Virus record (IMG/VR): IMGVR_UViG_3300025889_000169
Location: 1 to 51,173 of that record
Source: a virus
Length of the DNA: 51,173 nucleotides
Reading direction: 5' to 3' (one strand)
A program made the translations under genes and the position numbers. Under the pieces are notes generated by a model. That model was given only the letters and a program-made list of their open reading frames with translations, did not search any database and was not told the origin of the DNA. Positions 17,968 through 51,173 of the stretch are shown one piece after another; positions within the stretch are counted from its first letter, which is position 1; every line of letters starts with the position of its first letter.

Positions 17968-18412
17968 GCAGGACAGCGAACTCCTCAGGATTATCTGTAG
18001 TGTAAACTACACGTTTAAAGTCAAACTCTGCAATGGCCACCATACAGCCCTTGCAGGGTTTAGCAATACCGTTTATCCAGTGTTTAGCACGTTCACTGGG
18101 ACGTTTTACCCTGTAAATGTACAGAGTTGCTTGCCTTAGATCTTCAGGGTTCAAGTGGTTAAGGCTGTTTTTGATAGCATTTATCTCAGCATGCAGGAAG
18201 ATGGCCTCGCTGTTCTTTGCATAGAGTTGTTGAAACGGGTGGCTCTTTTTTTGATTAAGACCAGTGCTAATAACTTTGCCTTTGATAGCAACTGCGGCAG
18301 CAAGTTTGGCACGTCGCAGGCCATTGTTGTCAATAGCCTGTCTACGAAGGAAATCCATGATACGAAAGTCGCGCCGGCTTATCACCGGCCCGGGCGACGG
18401 GCCATCATCCAT
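17963..18412 (-). CDS. Cytidine/deoxycytidylate deaminase family protein
   Basis: The zinc site is complete: H74-A-E76 in HAEINAI and C120-x2-C123 in PCKGC. E76 acts as the proton shuttle. The family converts dCMP to dUMP or cytidine to uridine. In a T4-like phage a dCMP deaminase feeding dTTP synthesis is the best guess, but allosteric-site residues cannot be judged. AAGGAG lies before the ATG, which is inside the end of the upstream gene. Confidence 0.85.
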   Translation of the reverse strand: MDDGPSPGPVISRRDFRIMDFLRRQAIDNNGLRRAKLAAAVAIKGKVISTGLNQKKSHPFQQLYAKNSEAIFLHAEINAIKNSLNHLNPEDLRQATLYIYRVKRPSERAKHWINGIAKPCKGCMVAIAEFDFKRVVYTTDNPEEFAVLQ

Positions 18413-18683
18413 TGATCCACTCCTTTACCTTGCTGTGACTTCCCCAGGCGTTACCCGGAAGTTCATTATAAATGAACTTAACAATATCAAACAATGCCTG
18501 CCGGCTTTCCTCGTCTGCTCGTCCCACACTTTCACTGAGATTGTTAGCAAGCACCGCGGTGAGAAATCCACCAGGTTGCAGACGCTGGAAAACATAACGC
18601 TCCAGTGCGCCACGAATATTGTCAGGGATACTGGGATAACTTGAGAAATCCAGCCTAGCAATGTTAAAAATCTGCGCTGTCAT
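18405..18683 (-). CDS. Conserved small phage protein (92 aa)
   Basis: The sequence IPDNIRGALERYVFQRLQPG followed by GFLTAVLANNLSESVGRADE, then IVKFIYNELPGNAWGS and KEWING, is a pattern common in phages of proteobacteria and without known function. It is helical, with a conserved G-G-F-L. The 3' end overlaps the deaminase start by eight bases. Confidence 0.75.
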   Translation of the reverse strand: MTAQIFNIARLDFSSYPSIPDNIRGALERYVFQRLQPGGFLTAVLANNLSESVGRADEESRQALFDIVKFIYNELPGNAWGSHSKVKEWING

Positions 18684-18943
18684 TCCTGAATCTCAATATC
18701 TTGCGTATCAGCAAACTTAACAACAAATGTACTTTTTGACTCATGATCCCTAACTTCAAATAATTCAGTATTCAAATCACGAGCAACAATATCGCCTGTG
18801 CTTGTATAGTCACCATACCTTTGAACAGGAAGGTCTGCCATGCTGTACAAACCACCGGGACGCCCATAACTGTCCAGAGGAATGTTTACGGTAAATTTGC
18901 AACTGTAACTGTTACCTGCTCGTATGTCTAGTGGTGTGATCAT
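18680..18943 (-). CDS. Hypothetical small beta-rich protein (87 aa)
   Basis: The start at 18943 (MITPLDIRAGNSYSCKFTVN) is chosen because AAGGAG lies 11 bases upstream. A longer frame from 19270 overlaps the neighbour in another frame and lacks coding character. The alternation of strands (FEVRDHESKSTFVVKFADTQ) suggests a small barrel. Function unknown. Confidence 0.7.
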   Translation of the reverse strand: MITPLDIRAGNSYSCKFTVNIPLDSYGRPGGLYSMADLPVQRYGDYTSTGDIVARDLNTELFEVRDHESKSTFVVKFADTQDIEIQE

Positions 18944-34034: not shown

Positions 34035-34712
34035 TTAAGCACCGTAGTATTCACCAATTCTAGCCCACCATTTACGGCTGTAGTCTCTATATTCGTCACC
34101 TGAAATTGTCCAAGTCTGAAATTTATAATCTTGCGTACACATTAATACAACACCGGTTTCTATATCTGTGCCATAAACTTCATTATGAGCATCTCCATAA
34201 GCACATAATTGCATAAAGTAATCTTCAATCCACTCACGCTTTTTTTCTTTGTTTGATTGTTTAAAATCAATAATAGCAGGGCTACCATTGTATAAGCCAA
34301 CACAGTCTGTGGTACCAGCATACACCTGAGGGAAGTATAATGGAACTTCTGTACCCCAACATTCTTCCATTTTATCCAAGCCCTGCTCAACAATTATGTT
34401 AGCCATCTTATGACTCTGCTGACTGTAGGGATTACTGCCAGGCTCGTCGATGCGAGCTTCTTTTACATACTGTTCAAGCCAAGCATGCATACGTGTACCT
34501 CTACCTGCTGCTTCTTTTGTTATTTCCGCAGCCTTGGTTTCGCCTACTCGTTTACGCCATTCACGTAGAGCTTTTTTGCTTTCTTCAGGTTTTGTTTTGT
34601 CTAGGATGGTCGTTACACTAGGCACAGCTAATCCGTCTGGCGTAGTGTACATACGGCGTCCATCAACACTTTTGCGCTTTAGACTTCCATAGTCATATCG
34701 TTCTGTTATCAT
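34035..34712 (-). CDS. PD-(D/E)XK nuclease, RecB/Cas4/exonuclease-like
   Basis: The motif order is typical: GRGTRMHAWLEQY (helix with conserved His), YAGTTDCVGLYNGSPAIIDF followed by K (the D ... D-x-K core near 140-157), and a Gln-containing helix, EDYFMQLCAYG. The leader includes GLAVPSVTTIL, common in phage exonucleases of this kind. It probably trims DNA in recombination or repair. The promoter's TATAAT ends six bases before the ATG. Confidence 0.82.
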   Translation of the reverse strand: MITERYDYGSLKRKSVDGRRMYTTPDGLAVPSVTTILDKTKPEESKKALREWRKRVGETKAAEITKEAAGRGTRMHAWLEQYVKEARIDEPGSNPYSQQSHKMANIIVEQGLDKMEECWGTEVPLYFPQVYAGTTDCVGLYNGSPAIIDFKQSNKEKKREWIEDYFMQLCAYGDAHNEVYGTDIETGVVLMCTQDYKFQTWTISGDEYRDYSRKWWARIGEYYGA

Positions 34713-39863: not shown

Positions 39864-40118
39864 TTAAAGTAATTTAAGAAGTAGAAACGCTACTGCGCTG
39901 GCTAATCCAGCTATAAGAGCACTGGCCCAGGCTAATACTTGCCTGTTGCGACTTGCCTCTGTTTTTATAACTGCGTGATGTATGTCTTCCAGAGTTTGTT
40001 CTTGACGATCAAGACGTGAATTAATTGCATCGAGTTTATCGTGCACTTGTTTATACCTTTCACTACACAACTCTACGTGTGCTGGAAGGCTCTCTTTTTC
40101 TATATCTTTTGTTGACAT
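39864..40118 (-). CDS. Coiled-coil protein with C-terminal membrane anchor (84 aa)
   Basis: Residues 15-60 form a coiled coil (ERYKQVHDKLDAINSRLDRQ, then EQTLEDIHHAVIKTE). Residues 62-84 form one membrane span (LAWASALIAGLASAVAFLLL). This layout is common in phage holin-like or XhlA-like proteins. The long leader carries four copies of the ATAGGC motif, so translation may be controlled. GTAGGTGAGACTGG precedes the ATG. Confidence 0.65.
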   Translation of the reverse strand: MSTKDIEKESLPAHVELCSERYKQVHDKLDAINSRLDRQEQTLEDIHHAVIKTEASRNRQVLAWASALIAGLASAVAFLLLKLL

Positions 40119-40153
40119 CCAGTCTCACCTACATTTGGGTGATGCTTGATTGG

Positions 40154-40193
40154 TGCCTATTTTTGTGCCTATGTGAGCCTATGCTATGCCTAT
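40154..40193 (-). repeat. Four ATAGGC-type motifs in the leader of the membrane coiled-coil gene
   Basis: TGCCTAT (plus strand) occurs at 40154, 40166 and 40187, with AGCCTAT at 40176. They lie between a GATAAATA box (40205-40212) and the gene start at 40118. The same motif recurs in two other leaders (44885 and 45732-45777). Confidence 0.6.
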
Positions 40194-44876: not shown

Positions 44877-44898
44877 TTTTAGTGTGCCTATTTTGTAG

Positions 44899-44912
44899 TA
44901 TTTATGTTAAAT
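44899..44912. promoter_or_regulatory. Divergent late-type boxes between 44876 and 44936
   Basis: CATAAATA (minus strand, 44899-44906) faces left. GTTAAATA (plus strand, 44905-44912) faces right, ahead of the lipase gene. The two boxes overlap by two bases. Confidence 0.5.
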
Positions 44913-44935
44913 ATTATTATAACAGGAGAGAGAAA

Positions 44936-45682
44936 ATGGATCAACTTAGAGATCTGGCTATTCACTATGCCCGATGCAGCCAGCTGGCATACCTTGACAG
45001 TGTGGAAAAACAGGATTTAACTGAACTAGGATATACAAAAGCTACTTTAATAGATGTAAAAAATGCTCAGGTAATGATATTTGAAAACAAGAATGTTATT
45101 ACGCTTGCGTTTAGAGGCACTGAGCCTAAAGAAGTAAAAGATATTATAGCAGATCTCAAAGCCTGGAAACATCGCGCACAAAGTGGCGTTGGTAGAGTAC
45201 ATGATGGTTTTTATGATGAAGTTAAAAAAGTCTGGAACGATGTGGTGACCTACATAAACAAAGGTAAAAACAAGGATAAAACACTAAACATCACTGGCCA
45301 CAGTCTGGGTGCTGGCATGGCAGTTATTTCTGCTAGTAGACTAAAAAGTAGAGTTAATGATTTGTTTACCTATGGTTGCCCAAGAGTTGGCAATAAACGC
45401 TGGGTTAAAGTTAACAGTGATCTCAAGCATCAGAGATTTGTCAACAATAACGACATAGTTCCAAAAGTTCCTCTTGCTCTCATGGGATATCGTCATCACG
45501 GCACACTAGAGTATATAAACTATTATGGTGACTTCCGTACACCAACCTGGTGGCAGAGATTTAAAGATGGATGGCGCGGAAGATCTAGAGCACTGATTAA
45601 AGGACAAATCTTTGATGGTTTGTATGACCACAGCATTAATGAATATGTAAAATCTTTAACAAGTCCTATACCAAGAAAATAA
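44936..45682 (+). CDS. Class 3 lipase (alpha/beta hydrolase)
   Basis: The catalytic serine is S123 in GHSLGAG. D173 (NNNDIVPKVP) and H242 (YDHSINEY) complete the triad, all in the usual order. There is no signal peptide, so it acts in the cytoplasm, either on the inner membrane at lysis or on internal lipid stores. At 248 aa it is one compact domain. The ATG at 44936 is preferred because AGGAGAGAG precedes it. It is the first gene of a plus-strand island. Confidence 0.85.
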   Translation: MDQLRDLAIHYARCSQLAYLDSVEKQDLTELGYTKATLIDVKNAQVMIFENKNVITLAFRGTEPKEVKDIIADLKAWKHRAQSGVGRVHDGFYDEVKKVWNDVVTYINKGKNKDKTLNITGHSLGAGMAVISASRLKSRVNDLFTYGCPRVGNKRWVKVNSDLKHQRFVNNNDIVPKVPLALMGYRHHGTLEYINYYGDFRTPTWWQRFKDGWRGRSRALIKGQIFDGLYDHSINEYVKSLTSPIPRK

Positions 45683-45700: not shown

Positions 45701-45777
45701 GCTAAATAAAAACGTCATTACAAGTAATGACTTAGGCAAAAAACGAAAACTTTTAGGCATTTAGGCAAACAGAGGCA
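45701..45777 (+). promoter_or_regulatory. Leader of the polymerase gene: late box, palindrome, TAGGCA repeats
   Basis: GCTAAATA (45701-45708) is followed by a perfect 8-bp palindrome, GTCATTAC-AA-GTAATGAC (45714-45731). TTAGGCA follows at 45732, 45753 and 45761, and AGGCA lies at 45773 right before the ATG. There is no clear Shine-Dalgarno. Confidence 0.65.
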
Positions 45778-47475
45778 ATGAAATTACCAAAAGATGCGAA
45801 GGCTCAATTAGATAGGCTACTTGGCAGGTTCACAAGGCAAATACCAGAGGCTCCTGAGTACCAAGACAGACTCGTCGAAGAATTTGAGATTATTCTCAAA
45901 CTTCGCTTTACTGATTATTTCCTAACAATTTGCGACGTACTAGCTCTGACCGAGGACATTCCACATATGACTCGGGGTTCAGCAGGGTCTAGTCTTGTCT
46001 GTTATCTACTAGGTATTACAGACGTTGATCCCATAAGGTGGCAGATACCTGTTGCCCGTTTCCTAAATCCTTTGAGGGATGATCTACCAGACGTAGACAT
46101 AGACTTTCCGCATTGGCAACAGGACACTGTGATGCAACGTATCTTTGCAAATTGGCCAGAACGTTCAGCAAGAATCAGTAACTATGTGCTATACAAGGAG
46201 CGCAGTGCTCGCAGAGAAGCGGCGCGCCGTCTAGGTGCGTCTGGTAGACTCCCTCGTAATTTTCGTTATGAAGATTTAGACATTGACAAGGAAGAGGCCA
46301 TGAGAATCGAACACAAATTAATAGGCAAAAAACGAAGCATCAGCAAACACTGTGGTGGTGTGCTGGTATTTGAGAGAAAACTACCCAAGAGTTTATTCAA
46401 CAAAGACAATCAGATATTATTAGACAAACGTGAAGTAGAAGACTTAGAACACCTTAAGATAGACATACTTGCTAACAGAGGTCTAAGCCAACTTATTGAA
46501 ATAGATCCTGACACGCCACTGGAAGCATATCCAGAACAGGACTTTGAAACAAGTCAGTTACTATGTAGGGGTGATGTTATTGGCGTAACACAAGCAGAAT
46601 CTCCTGCAATGAGACGGCTGTTCCGTGCAATACAGCCACAATCAAAAGCAGACTGTGTGTTTGCCACAGCACTCATACGTCCTGTTGCAACTACAGGCAG
46701 ACAGAAAGCAAGTTTCTTTCAGGACTGGACAGAACAAAGACTAGAGGACACTATTGTATATGAGGATGATGCTATACGTAAGATTGCTAAACTCATAGGC
46801 TGCGACTTGTATGAAGCAGACATGTACAGACGTGCGTTTGCTAAGAAGGATGAAGAACGTGTAATAGAATTTATGAGTCGAATGGGCGAACATGCTGACA
46901 AGGAAGCAATCATACAAGAGCTGTATGGACTGGGTAACTTTGGACTGTGCCGCGCTCATGCTGTAAACCTGGGTAGACTTATTTGGGCACTTGCATATCA
47001 AAAGGCACACAACCCACTAAAGTTTTGGCAGGCTGCACTCAAGCACTGTCAGGGATCATACAAGCGTTGGGTACACAAGCAGGAAGCAAAAACAGCAGGT
47101 TGGGATCTACGTGATCTTGGATATGAGAATGGAATATGTGAGTCACCTGTTACACAATACAAACGCAATGGCTATTGGTCACAGCCAGAGTTTATGCCCA
47201 ATATGTTTGTACAGGAAACCTATTTGGACCGTGTAAACTTTGCAGGGCTTGTAGCAAATGGGCGTGTATTCAAGGGTGCAGAGGGCAAGTATGTCACGTT
47301 TGTTACGCTAGGCGTGGGCAATAGTGATTACGTAGACGTAACTATCAAAAAGCCCTTTGGCTTCAGAGACCATGATGTTATTGTGGGTTCGGGTAAGATA
47401 CGCATGACTAACGGCACACGCTATATTGACTGTTGGGAAGCAAAGGGCTATAGACTAGATAGATATTTGTCCTAG
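45778..47475 (+). CDS. Short C-family DNA polymerase (DnaE/PolC palm-fingers type, no PHP domain)
   Basis: Motifs of bacterial Pol III alpha follow in order: RGSAGSSLVCYLLGITDVDP (66-85), RFLNP (94-98), PDVDIDF with D107 and D109 (104-110), SKHCGGVLVF (189-198) and HLKIDIL with D229. Next come a GVTQAESPAMRRL-type finger helix and the GNFGLCRAHAVNLGRL helix. The C-terminal 90 residues look like an OB fold (FAGLVANGRVFKGAEGKYVT). All three catalytic Asp are kept, but at 565 aa the N-terminal PHP domain and tau-binding end are absent. It could replicate or repair phage DNA. Confidence 0.8.
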   Translation: MKLPKDAKAQLDRLLGRFTRQIPEAPEYQDRLVEEFEIILKLRFTDYFLTICDVLALTEDIPHMTRGSAGSSLVCYLLGITDVDPIRWQIPVARFLNPLRDDLPDVDIDFPHWQQDTVMQRIFANWPERSARISNYVLYKERSARREAARRLGASGRLPRNFRYEDLDIDKEEAMRIEHKLIGKKRSISKHCGGVLVFERKLPKSLFNKDNQILLDKREVEDLEHLKIDILANRGLSQLIEIDPDTPLEAYPEQDFETSQLLCRGDVIGVTQAESPAMRRLFRAIQPQSKADCVFATALIRPVATTGRQKASFFQDWTEQRLEDTIVYEDDAIRKIAKLIGCDLYEADMYRRAFAKKDEERVIEFMSRMGEHADKEAIIQELYGLGNFGLCRAHAVNLGRLIWALAYQKAHNPLKFWQAALKHCQGSYKRWVHKQEAKTAGWDLRDLGYENGICESPVTQYKRNGYWSQPEFMPNMFVQETYLDRVNFAGLVANGRVFKGAEGKYVTFVTLGVGNSDYVDVTIKKPFGFRDHDVIVGSGKIRMTNGTRYIDCWEAKGYRLDRYLS

Positions 47476-48389
47476 ATGTTTATACCATAGTCTTGTCTAC
47501 GAATACCTTTGAGCATGTCTTGTCTATCCAATTCCTGTATGGTTTGTTCGTTAATTGGAGTCCTAGGATTAAAACATGCAGGCTGAGTTACTTCACTGAT
47601 AAACCAGTTTAGATTATTTTTTTCAAACCAATCTAAAGTTTCCTGTTTATAAGGTAATAGAACATTAGTAAGTGCAAAGTGTACACTAATGTCACAACCT
47701 ATACTTTTAAATTTCTCAAGGTTAACTAATAATTTATCCCATTTTAACGGCCAACGTTGGTATTCGTAACGACTTTCTATACCGTCAATACTTAAACATA
47801 ATATTAATTTTTTGAACTTTTTAAGTACTGTTAGTAAATCTTCCGTTAATTCTATACTACCATTTGTGATAATGCTAACAGTACAGTCTTTGTTTAGTCT
47901 TTCTAATATTTCTATGTTCTTTGATTCTAAAAGTGTTTCACCGCCTAGCAGTTCCACATATTTTGCTGTATCAAAATCTATTTCATTAAGTAACTCGTCG
48001 CCTATTGTTCTTTTATGTGCTATACCATCCAAACTTTCCCACATGCTGCTATAATTTGGAGAACACATTATACAAGCAGCGTTGCAAACATTACTAGTAG
48101 TAATCTGATAGATTGTTGGCTGATAATGTGTACAAATCTTTTTTAAATTTTCAATATCTAGATCATAAAGTGTATCAGCAAGTATGTTTTGCTGTTGTCT
48201 CCTGCTCGTCTGACCTAGGTCTTCTGAGTTCCAGCATTTCTGACATGCAGAAGTTTTTATTCCATTACTAATCTCTGTTCTTATTAAATCTATGTCATAG
48301 TCCTGAGGTAACCAGCAACAGTGCCCGATACGACCTCTTGGATATATTTCTTTTGCTAACCATGGCATAACACAAAATGTATCTGACAT
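47472..48389 (-). CDS. Radical SAM protein, twitch/SPASM-related (305 aa)
   Basis: The cluster motif is C102-x3-C106-x2-C109 (SNVCNAACIMCS). A Cys-rich N-terminal part (IGHCCWLPQD, SACQKCWNSED) is typical of the twitch/SPASM-type proteins in marine phages. KYVELLGGETLLE supplies the GGE motif for SAM. The enzyme would make a 5'-deoxyadenosyl radical, but the target is unknown. It sits next to a second, similar protein, and its end overlaps the polymerase gene by four bases on the opposite strand. Confidence 0.82.
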   Translation of the reverse strand: MSDTFCVMPWLAKEIYPRGRIGHCCWLPQDYDIDLIRTEISNGIKTSACQKCWNSEDLGQTSRRQQQNILADTLYDLDIENLKKICTHYQPTIYQITTSNVCNAACIMCSPNYSSMWESLDGIAHKRTIGDELLNEIDFDTAKYVELLGGETLLESKNIEILERLNKDCTVSIITNGSIELTEDLLTVLKKFKKLILCLSIDGIESRYEYQRWPLKWDKLLVNLEKFKSIGCDISVHFALTNVLLPYKQETLDWFEKNNLNWFISEVTQPACFNPRTPINEQTIQELDRQDMLKGIRRQDYGINI

Positions 48390-49502
48390 CTATAGGTACC
48401 TGCTGTAAAAACTTGAAACTTCAGGAAATGTTTTAGTCCAATCCTGCTTCCTCCAACCATCAACCTTTTGGATCTCAGATATCATTTTTTTAATCAGTGC
48501 AGAATTTTCAACAAAATTAGTTGGTACAAGACCAAAAATATCGGTTCCGGTAATTCTGTCTATATACTCGTTAGTCATTGACTGTAAACTAAAAATACCA
48601 TATGCATTATGCGTTGTATGATTAGTAATATCCCCCAAGCGATTAGTACTAAAATTAGACCTAGCCCAATTGACTAATTCATTATGATAATACAAGTTAA
48701 AAATGCTCAGGGTTTCTTCTACTAGAAACATCATATTAACTGGTGCAGTGTCAACTATTTCTTGGATATTTTCAGTAACTTGATTCCAGCTAGCTGGCCA
48801 TCTAAGATATTCAAAGCGTTCAGCAACACCATCTAAACTAATATTAAGTTTTACAAGATGTGCTTTTTCTATAATAGAATAATGACGTTCTCCAATTGGC
48901 TGTGTGCCATTTGTTTGAAAACTAATTGTAAGCTGGTTACCAGCATTGGGAACATTGTTAACAAGATAGTCAGCAACTTTCCAATAACTTTCTCCAAGTA
49001 ATGTCTCGCCACCGCCAAATACTACGCTTTTAAGATTAGATAAGTCTAGAGTTTTAAGTATAGCAATCATTTCCTCGACACGATCAGGTTTTGGATCCAT
49101 CTCTGAGATTGCATTATTGTCCTTTAAATGTTTTTGCCAAAATGTGCTGCTATGAGGTCCACAGCTACGACATGATAGGTTGCAACTTGTGCTAAACATC
49201 AAATCTAAACGTAACGGGCCAGATATGTTTCTTTGTACACCAAACTGTTCTAACATTCCTTGTCTGAAGCTAATTAGGCCGGCACGTTCATTTGCTTGAC
49301 AAGACCAACAGCTATCTAACCACTCTCCCTGATCGTTTTTTTGTCTAATTACCTCAAAGTTCTTTTTTTCCCAAACATTATTAGTTTGAATAAAGTCACT
49401 GGTGTCCAAACAACAATATTTAATATTGATTCCAGTCCCTTGTTTTAAGTTAATATTAAGACCTCCGTGAATCATAGGGCAATATGTAGAATTATCAGTC
49501 AT
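48390..49502 (-). CDS. Radical SAM protein, twitch/SPASM-related (370 aa)
   Basis: C107-x3-C111-x2-C114 (STSCNLSCRSCG) binds the [4Fe-4S] cluster, and VVFGGGETLLGE gives the GGE motif. The N-terminal part has further cysteines (TYCPMIHGG, IKYCCLD, WLDSCWSCQANER) that could bind an auxiliary cluster. NISLDGVAERFEYLRWPASW is a shared block with the neighbouring radical SAM protein (SIDGIESRYEYQRWPLKW), so the two are paralogues. Substrate unknown. Confidence 0.82.
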   Translation of the reverse strand: MTDNSTYCPMIHGGLNINLKQGTGINIKYCCLDTSDFIQTNNVWEKKNFEVIRQKNDQGEWLDSCWSCQANERAGLISFRQGMLEQFGVQRNISGPLRLDLMFSTSCNLSCRSCGPHSSTFWQKHLKDNNAISEMDPKPDRVEEMIAILKTLDLSNLKSVVFGGGETLLGESYWKVADYLVNNVPNAGNQLTISFQTNGTQPIGERHYSIIEKAHLVKLNISLDGVAERFEYLRWPASWNQVTENIQEIVDTAPVNMMFLVEETLSIFNLYYHNELVNWARSNFSTNRLGDITNHTTHNAYGIFSLQSMTNEYIDRITGTDIFGLVPTNFVENSALIKKMISEIQKVDGWRKQDWTKTFPEVSSFYSRYL

Positions 49503-50889
49503 TTTGCTTCAGACTCGCTAACATATCTTTGAGTTTCGAGCTCTGGACATTCGCAGTGATCTTAGCAACCTCCGTATCCTCTCCATCTCCGGAGTTTCCG
49601 GTTGATTTGAGTTGCTCGTAGATTGAACTGCTTTGCTTCTTAAAGTTCTGATAGTCTTCATCCTCACCTAAGTCTCTAATACGCAGGTTTTCAATATCAA
49701 ACTCCAAGTCTACCTTTTGTCCAACACCACTTGAACTACGTGTTTTCATTAGCTGTATCTGATAACGTCCACGCTCACGCATTGCACGACTTGTAAAGAT
49801 ACCAAACACATTGTCTGCTGTATTGATCTTACTAATACCGCCACTGATGTGCGAATGGTCAAATTCAATTTCTTCCACTGCACTACGGTTCAACTGCGAT
49901 GCCGTTACAAAGATTGTGTTAATTTCTCTAGCCAAGTTACGTAGTTCTTCACTTACATACTTGTCCTTAACAAACAGGTCATTGGGACTGACCTTTGCAC
50001 TAACTGGCATCAACAGATCCAAGTAGTCAATAAGCAGGAAGTCAATACGCATGTTCTTTGTAATCTCAAGTTCCTTCAAATATGCTCTAACATCATTAAC
50101 TGTGCTTTGTGCTGGCATATACTTGATCTGTAGGTTGCCTGCTTTCTTACCCACCATCTTAACTTTCATCTCAACAGTATCCAAGTCTTTGAATACTTCT
50201 TTAGTACTGATGTTTGTAAGCATACTGTCAATACGCATAGCACTCAACCCTTCACTAAGTTCTAGTGTTAGGTATACACCGTTGAGTCCTGCTGTTACCC
50301 AATTAACAGCCAAGTTTTGCATAAACAAACTCTTACCACTACCACTACCACCTGCAAAGATATTTAGCTCGCCCTTGTTCATACCACCAAACAGTTTACG
50401 ATCCAGTGCAGGCCAACCTGTGCTTACCTGTCCGTTGTTGTCCTTGAGTGCCATAAGTCGTGCTCTAGGATTTTCAAAGTAGTCTGTACCCATGTCCTTG
50501 GTTAGACTAATCTGCACTGCGTCTTTGATTAGTTTCTCTACAGGATCATAAGTGCCTTTTTCTAGTAAGTCTGCTGCTTTTAGAATTGCACGTTCCAGTT
50601 CCTGTCGCTTGGTAAACGACTCAAACTCCTCAAGGAACCAATCGTTATGTCCTTCTGCCATTTCTGGGATAGGTTTTGCATCTAAGTGTGTAGCAGCGTT
50701 CAACTGTTCATACGTAGGCATAGTGCTATGCTTTGTAGCATGCTCCTTGATAAACTCTGCTGCGTCACGCAAACTGCGATCAAAGTTCTCTGCGTTAAAG
50801 ATGTTCTGCACTCTGACGTAGTTTTGTGCATCCTGCATCATCATTTCTAAAAACAGTTTTTGTAAATCTGGCGTATATTCTCTAGCCAT
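49495..50889 (-). CDS. 41: Replicative DnaB-type helicase, T4 gp41-like
   Basis: The Walker A motif is in IFAGGSGSGKSLFMQNLAVN (about 177-196) and Walker B is IDFLLIDYLDLL. TASQLNRSAV and SHISGGISKINTADNVFGIF are further RecA-core motifs of DnaB helicases. The N-terminal 130 residues fit the primase-interacting domain. It unwinds DNA 5' to 3' at the fork. The start at 50889 overlaps the stop of the upstream gene as TAATG; the longer frame has no support. It overlaps the radical SAM gene by eight bases. Confidence 0.93.
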   Translation of the reverse strand: MAREYTPDLQKLFLEMMMQDAQNYVRVQNIFNAENFDRSLRDAAEFIKEHATKHSTMPTYEQLNAATHLDAKPIPEMAEGHNDWFLEEFESFTKRQELERAILKAADLLEKGTYDPVEKLIKDAVQISLTKDMGTDYFENPRARLMALKDNNGQVSTGWPALDRKLFGGMNKGELNIFAGGSGSGKSLFMQNLAVNWVTAGLNGVYLTLELSEGLSAMRIDSMLTNISTKEVFKDLDTVEMKVKMVGKKAGNLQIKYMPAQSTVNDVRAYLKELEITKNMRIDFLLIDYLDLLMPVSAKVSPNDLFVKDKYVSEELRNLAREINTIFVTASQLNRSAVEEIEFDHSHISGGISKINTADNVFGIFTSRAMRERGRYQIQLMKTRSSSGVGQKVDLEFDIENLRIRDLGEDEDYQNFKKQSSSIYEQLKSTGNSGDGEDTEVAKITANVQSSKLKDMLASLKQND

Positions 50890-51173
50890 TAACACTTTCC
50901 ACAATTAAAAACACAATAATTAGGCCTTGTATCTTGTATTGTAGCATAAAAATTTTTAAATCTACTAATACATTCACTCAAAGTATAATCCTGTATGCTC
51001 ATTTTATCTTTCCACCATTCGCTTTTATACCAAAATTCATAATTTTTGCTGTAGCAGCAAGGTGCGTAAAAACCGTCAGCACTTATGAAATGTTCTTTAT
51101 CAGAAACACATTTTGGATCTATGCTAAATGACTTAATACCTTTCGTTTTATATTCTTGCTGTACTGTATCTCT
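50889..51173 (-). CDS. Cys-rich (probable radical SAM/SPASM) protein, C-terminal part only
   Basis: The frame is open to the right edge, so only 94 residues are visible. They contain FSIDPKCVSDKEHFISADGF, then YAPCCYSKNYEFWYKSEWWK and a final PNYCVFNCGKC. The CC motif after a short beta part and the closing C-x3-C-x2-C spacing resemble the auxiliary-cluster region of SPASM/twitch proteins. Two complete radical SAM genes lie just to the left, across the helicase. The core radical SAM motif would be outside the window. Confidence 0.65.
   Translation of the reverse strand, partial: RDTVQQEYKTKGIKSFSIDPKCVSDKEHFISADGFYAPCCYSKNYEFWYKSEWWKDKMSIQDYTLSECISRFKNFYATIQDTRPNYCVFNCGKC

Follow-up and report, generated by a model that had tools for sequence, protein, structure and literature searches.

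A single-chain minimal C-family DNA polymerase, probably accessory, in a RaK2-like jumbo phage

The DNA analysed here (the window) is an IMG/VR virus record of 51,173 nucleotides (IMGVR_UViG_3300025889_000169), a 51-kb fragment of a phage genome. Near its end lies an ATG-initiated open reading frame of 565 codons, with exactly the boundaries given in an earlier note on this sequence, preceded by a distinctive leader and converging on a replicative helicase gene (Table 1). Its product matches the Pfam models DNA_pol3_alpha (PF07733, E=1.2e-42, residues 19-232) and DNA_pol3_finger (PF17657, E=7.7e-15, residues 247-375). No Pfam model for the PHP, HhH or C-terminal domain (CTD) matches the protein, and neither do the DNA_pol_B and exonuclease domains of T4 gp43 (family B). 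Sequence matches in the PDB are to solved DnaE (DNA polymerase III alpha) structures only. Directly upstream on the same strand is a class 3 lipase gene (Pfam Lipase_3, E 5.4e-25; 44882-45682), a position held by different genes in the related locus L009. Two adjacent radical-SAM genes (47472-49502) separate the polymerase from the helicase, where L009 again has other genes, marking a variable cargo spot; because of these intervening genes, polymerase and helicase do not form an operon.

Table 1. Features of the polymerase gene, its leader and the neighbouring helicase gene (window coordinates; residue numbers refer to the 565-aa protein)
Feature	Position	Strand	Basis
TAAATAAA box, resembling a T4-type late promoter (TATAAATA)	45703..45710	+	75 nt before start codon; in 40/41 distinct near-clade leaders
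Hairpin GTCATTAC/AA/GTAATGAC, just downstream of the TAAATAAA box	45714..45731	+	stem changes compensated in relatives
Four AGGCA repeats, last one touching the ATG; gene-specific leader element	45732..45777	+	leader comparison
CDS, single-chain minimal C-family (Pol III alpha) DNA polymerase, 565 aa	45778..47475	+	ORF, Pfam, PDB sequence matches, fold, purifying selection
Palm part 1, residues ~20-125, with R66-G67-S68 and PDVDIDF motifs	45835..46152	+	PF07733, alignment; approximate boundaries
Codons of catalytic D105 and D107 (E. coli D401, D403)	46090..46098	+	169/169; invariant also in DnaE and split forms
Thumb, residues ~129-184	46162..46329	+	alignment, model helices 141-151 and 171-181; approximate boundaries
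Palm part 2, residues ~185-245	46330..46512	+	alignment, model; approximate boundaries
Codons of K227 and catalytic D229 (E. coli D555)	46456..46464	+	169/169 invariant
Fingers, residues ~246-452, with R351 and steric-gate H394 (E. coli H760)	46513..47133	+	PF17657 247-375; structural match to DnaE through 452; 169/169
C-terminal OB fold, residues ~482-560	47221..47457	+	VIA-align to SSB/PriB OB folds, Z ~8; DnaE alignments reach residues 556-565
DnaB/gp41-like replicative helicase	49495..50904	-	convergent with polymerase; synteny in L009 and G016

The catalytic motifs PDxDID and KxD are present with their three Asp residues, D105, D107 and D229, which correspond to E. coli D401, D403 and D555, and H394 lines up with a His that is invariant in the fingers motif of DnaE and is the presumptive steric gate in E. 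coli (H760; PMC8485763). D105, D107, D229, K227, R351 and H394 are each invariant in all 169 viral homologues, and the same active-site residues are found by alignment in ordinary DnaE. The earlier note had recognized the three catalytic Asp, and none of them has been lost in any relative. An AlphaFold2 model of the protein, built from 43 aligned relatives, has a mean pLDDT of 87.9 (below 50 at residues 308-323 only) and a pTM of 0.86, and displays a Pol beta-like palm, thumb and fingers fold. VIA-align matched the model to M. tuberculosis DnaE1 (5lew; Z 34.4, residues 5-452) and to the Taq Pol III ternary complex (3e0d; Z 32.6, 520 residues aligned). The 19 structures that Foldseek matched at E<=0.001 are without exception Pol III alpha or PolC, as are the top PDB matches, and no other fold was matched better than that of DnaE. 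In the model, the architecture is palm-thumb-fingers-OB; palm, thumb and fingers had been noticed earlier from motifs, while the C-terminal OB fold had been missed.

Comparison with bacterial DnaE defines what has been kept and what is missing. The palm, thumb and fingers superpose on those of M. tuberculosis DnaE1 (5lew/7pu7) and Taq (3e0d) at Z 28-34, with the same catalytic triad and His steric gate, whereas the window protein is half the length, is ~25-30% identical, has a shorter thumb, and lacks PHP, the (HhH)2/beta-binding region and the tau-binding CTD. Only ~20 residues precede the palm, with no PHP match, and there is no room for HhH because the fingers stop near residue 452 and the OB fold begins near residue 482. 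PHP and (HhH)2 are nearly universal in the bacterial DnaE1, DnaE2, DnaE3 and PolC groups (PMC3919608). Pfam matches, conservation and predicted fold agree with the initial description of a minimal C-family polymerase of half the normal length without PHP and tau-binding parts, and its identity as a C-family polymerase is almost certain. From sequence and model, the protein is apparently a catalytically competent, single-chain polymerase in which only the palm, thumb, fingers and OB fold remain.

Viral homologues in IMG/VR number in the hundreds, with at least 590 relatives found by profile search. Full length ranges from 553 to 578 aa among the 169 viral homologues, and start and stop are the same in close relatives, which argues that the 565-aa frame is not a truncated fragment. 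With dN/dS values of 0.03-0.08 against close relatives, the polymerase is a conserved protein under selection. No full-length fused homologue was found among the cultured phages of the phage collection searched. The only deposited phage record with a full-length homologue is LR756508.1, from an uncultured 484-kb phage, in which the protein (574 aa, 39% identity over 97%) is unannotated and belongs to a separate subclade. Used as a sequence query, the LR756508 copy recovered no relatives in viral contigs, but the profile search did find them. In bacterial genomes no mini form was found, the matches having at most 30% identity over the core and being mostly full-length DnaE of 800-1300 aa.

The helicase encoded beside the polymerase is closest to those of PA5oct (49% identity), Atu_ph07, Phosso and XaC1, and the gene order helicase, nuclease, NrdA, NrdB is common to the window and PA5oct. 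A 338,435-base contig, G016 (locus L120), has a polymerase and a helicase both 69% identical to the window's, and carries RaK2-like replication genes (uvsX, 59% identity; gp44, 57%). Judged by these genes, the source of the window is a RaK2-like (group 2.2) jumbo phage of the T4 superfamily; the original label ‘T4-like’ was broadly right, but this placement is more exact. Past the helicase, beyond the end of the window, relatives carry a primase and the C-terminal half of a split Pol III. With regard to possible partners, the exonuclease in the window (34035-34712) is PD-(D/E)XK-like, not DnaQ. A DnaQ-type exonuclease partner (PF00929) was not found in the window or the related genomes G016, G002 and G013, with a weak match in LR756508, and the sliding clamp gp45 model (PF09116) gave no match, even in RaK2.

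The leader, described earlier as unusual, is real and conserved. Across the leaders of the near clade (41 distinct), GGCA averages 3.2 occurrences per 75 nt (vs 0.17 in shuffles) and the hairpin stem covaries (mean 6.5 pairs vs 3.4), the compensated variants being GTCATTAC/GTAATGAC, GTGTGACA/TGTCACAC and GTTGCA/TGCAAC. The AGGCA repeats persist in the 55-72% identical group, where 46 of 75 leaders have three or more. A sigma-70 promoter scan of the region found sites no more frequent than in shuffles. The sequence suggests that the TAAATAAA box is a putative late-type promoter and the hairpin a putative 5'-end hairpin, and the box, hairpin and repeats together suggest that the polymerase gene has its own timing or translational control. 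The leader (45703-45777) is also a possible translational operator. The only other AGGCA-type repeat cluster in the window (40135-40192, minus strand) lies ~70 nt upstream of a short open reading frame (39864-40118; 84 aa, likely one membrane helix), which may share a regulator.

Two further types of DNA polymerase are encoded by relatives of the window. The T4 gp43 family B polymerase (PolB), of an unrelated fold family, was sought elsewhere and found on G016, which encodes an intact 887-aa gp43-type PolB with exonuclease and polymerase domains (C-terminal end FTNLFEFI), and in LR756508, which likewise encodes both PolB and the one-chain C-family polymerase. In LR756508 the PolB frame is interrupted (L103 241-3294; ~260-267 kb), with an intein-like stretch in frame and the domain resuming in a later frame. 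In both long genomes the one-chain polymerase and PolB are ~200 kb apart. The second type, a minimal Pol III alpha encoded in two pieces by genes far apart, is paired with PolB in group 2.2 phages (Iyer et al. 2021, PMC7824862), and both halves were located in RaK2, PA5oct, Phosso, Atu_ph07 and XaC1. A search of fused-type genomes for the split C-half gave strong matches near the one-chain gene in G016 (E 7e-72), in G002 (E 1.5e-67) and in three more. G002 is the closest long relative of the window (96% identical), and its split C-half is 7 kb from the one-chain gene; in G016 the split N-half is also present (257,444-257,962), beside the clamp loader. Overall, the split C-half was seen at 50 of 150 distinct fused-gene loci, and at 12 of the 14 that are flanked by 7.5 kb or more on each side. 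Its position in L009 is 18123-18686, past the helicase and primase, and the equivalent site in the window lies past the window's end. The co-occurrence of PolB, the split halves and the one-chain gene gives these phages three polymerase gene sets.

The split and one-chain forms are alike in having a C-family core without PHP and other DnaE domains, and share catalytic residues, phage supergroup and synteny, as well as a co-encoded family B polymerase (for the one-chain form, in G016 and LR756508). They differ in that the split form consists of two genes (~170 and ~190 aa), whereas the window protein is one chain, encoded in the window and in all relatives of this gene by one continuous open reading frame with no break inside the palm. 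By alignment, the split form also lacks thumb, mid-fingers and OB fold. Several features of individual split C-halves can be added. They keep the three Asp and the His steric gate (including that of L009) and have neither the thumb nor the part of the fingers that holds R351. PA5oct gp264 (L091 12007-12606) is an unannotated split C-half whose tail, DPFKLFS, resembles a sliding-clamp-binding peptide. In Atu_ph07 gp074 (L092 7091-7670) the annotated start is too late, and the catalytic Asp motif is present, since the upstream open frame restores PDIDIDF.

The earlier note had allowed for either a second polymerase or a true replacement of gp43. The first alternative is borne out, and the co-encoding of gp43 speaks against the second: as related genomes hold a T4-type polymerase and a split C-family polymerase beside it, the 565-aa polymerase is very probably an accessory enzyme. 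For the one-chain enzyme to be the main replicase in the window's own lineage, with PolB kept only by distant relatives, is highly improbable. PolB (PF00136) had no match in the window or in its near relatives (the largest being 131 kb), nor was it seen in fragments of up to 183 kb, and C-family enzymes are the main replicases in some other jumbo phages (group 3.2; PMC7824862). However, given the ~200 kb between the two genes in long genomes, the absence of PolB from fragments is expected and is not a sign of loss, and no domain that could couple the fused enzyme to clamp, tau or exonuclease is present. With respect to origin, the one-chain enzyme might instead descend unsplit from the ancestor of the split minimal Pol III alpha, or have arisen by re-fusion of its halves, and perform the same job. 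The split point is internal to the fused palm, the N-half stopping at the match to RFLN (residue 97) and the C-half beginning at PDVDIDF (residue 104); LR756508 has the fused form without the split C-half; and an AU test did not reject fused and split forms as one clade (p=0.18), so the two forms may share an origin. That the one-chain enzyme is such an ancestor or copy in the same role is nonetheless unlikely, because most fused-type phages in the window's clade retain the split C-half, the split form is missing both the thumb and the region of the fingers around R351, and the best tree, built on 272 shared columns, groups the fused proteins in a single clade (100/100) next to bacterial DnaE and gives the split form a very long branch. 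A simple unsplit orthologue of the split enzyme was dropped as the leading explanation on account of the split halves in the same genomes.

The preferred explanation as a whole, with a probability of about 0.6, is that the protein serves a RaK2-like jumbo phage as an accessory polymerase, carrying out short synthesis and handing over to gp43. Because the enzyme is without exonuclease, tau-binding and beta-binding parts, and also without PHP, its synthesis would be short, distributive and non-proofreading; it may extend primase RNA primers or fill gaps in repair, after which the proofreading gp43 would take over. The specific role in primer extension or gap filling is an even bet. The nearby helicase, primase and split Pol III genes, on the opposite strand, weakly support a fork-associated role. 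A late-type promoter would be easier to reconcile with repair or late synthesis than with primer extension. A fuller division of labour can be put forward only tentatively, in which gp43 PolB would be responsible for bulk synthesis, the one-chain Pol III, controlled through an RNA leader of its own, would be a dedicated primer extender comparable to Pol alpha of eukaryotes or DnaE of B. subtilis, and the split Pol III would be primase/helicase-associated. A less likely but live rival is repair, with the enzyme acting in error-prone or translesion synthesis much as DnaE2/ImuC does in bacteria. In its favour are the lack of exonuclease and tau-binding CTD (bacterial DnaE2 enzymes never carry the CTD; PMC3919608), the variable gene neighbourhood and the own leader; against it, the active site has the residues of ordinary DnaE, and the gene is retained throughout the clade under strong purifying selection. 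It is scarcely credible that the protein is an inactive relic or a nucleotidyltransferase other than a polymerase, given that the catalytic and nucleotide-contacting residues are all invariant, that length is constant and dN/dS low, and that every polymerase subdomain is modelled with confidence.

The enzyme under the preferred reading, an accessory polymerase, is of an already known kind, the minimal C-family polymerase beside PolB in RaK2-like jumbo phages (PMC7824862). About half of the marine jumbo phage cluster PGC_A carry PF07733 (Weinheimer and Aylward 2022, PMC9123017); in the accessible part of that report the domain is listed only, and neither its fused or split state nor coexistence of the two is described. 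The accessible part of a 2026 paper mentions three DNA polymerases in Xanthomonas jumbo phages, with no family detail. In the literature searched, there was no description of a one-chain form that has thumb, fingers and OB fold, of its abundance in metagenomes, or of its coexistence with the split form. The one-chain polymerase may be the smallest single-chain C-family polymerase keeping palm, thumb and fingers, and its comparison with Pol III could show directly what the PHP, HhH and tau-binding parts add. The split enzyme was proposed by Iyer et al. as a model of ancestral Pol III (PMC7824862). The one-chain form is less reduced than the split enzyme, and since the fused clade is placed beside bacterial DnaE, an origin by reduction of a cellular enzyme can be tested as an alternative to that model. 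If all three gene sets are active, these phages would have an unusual multi-polymerase replisome mixing B-family and C-family enzymes.
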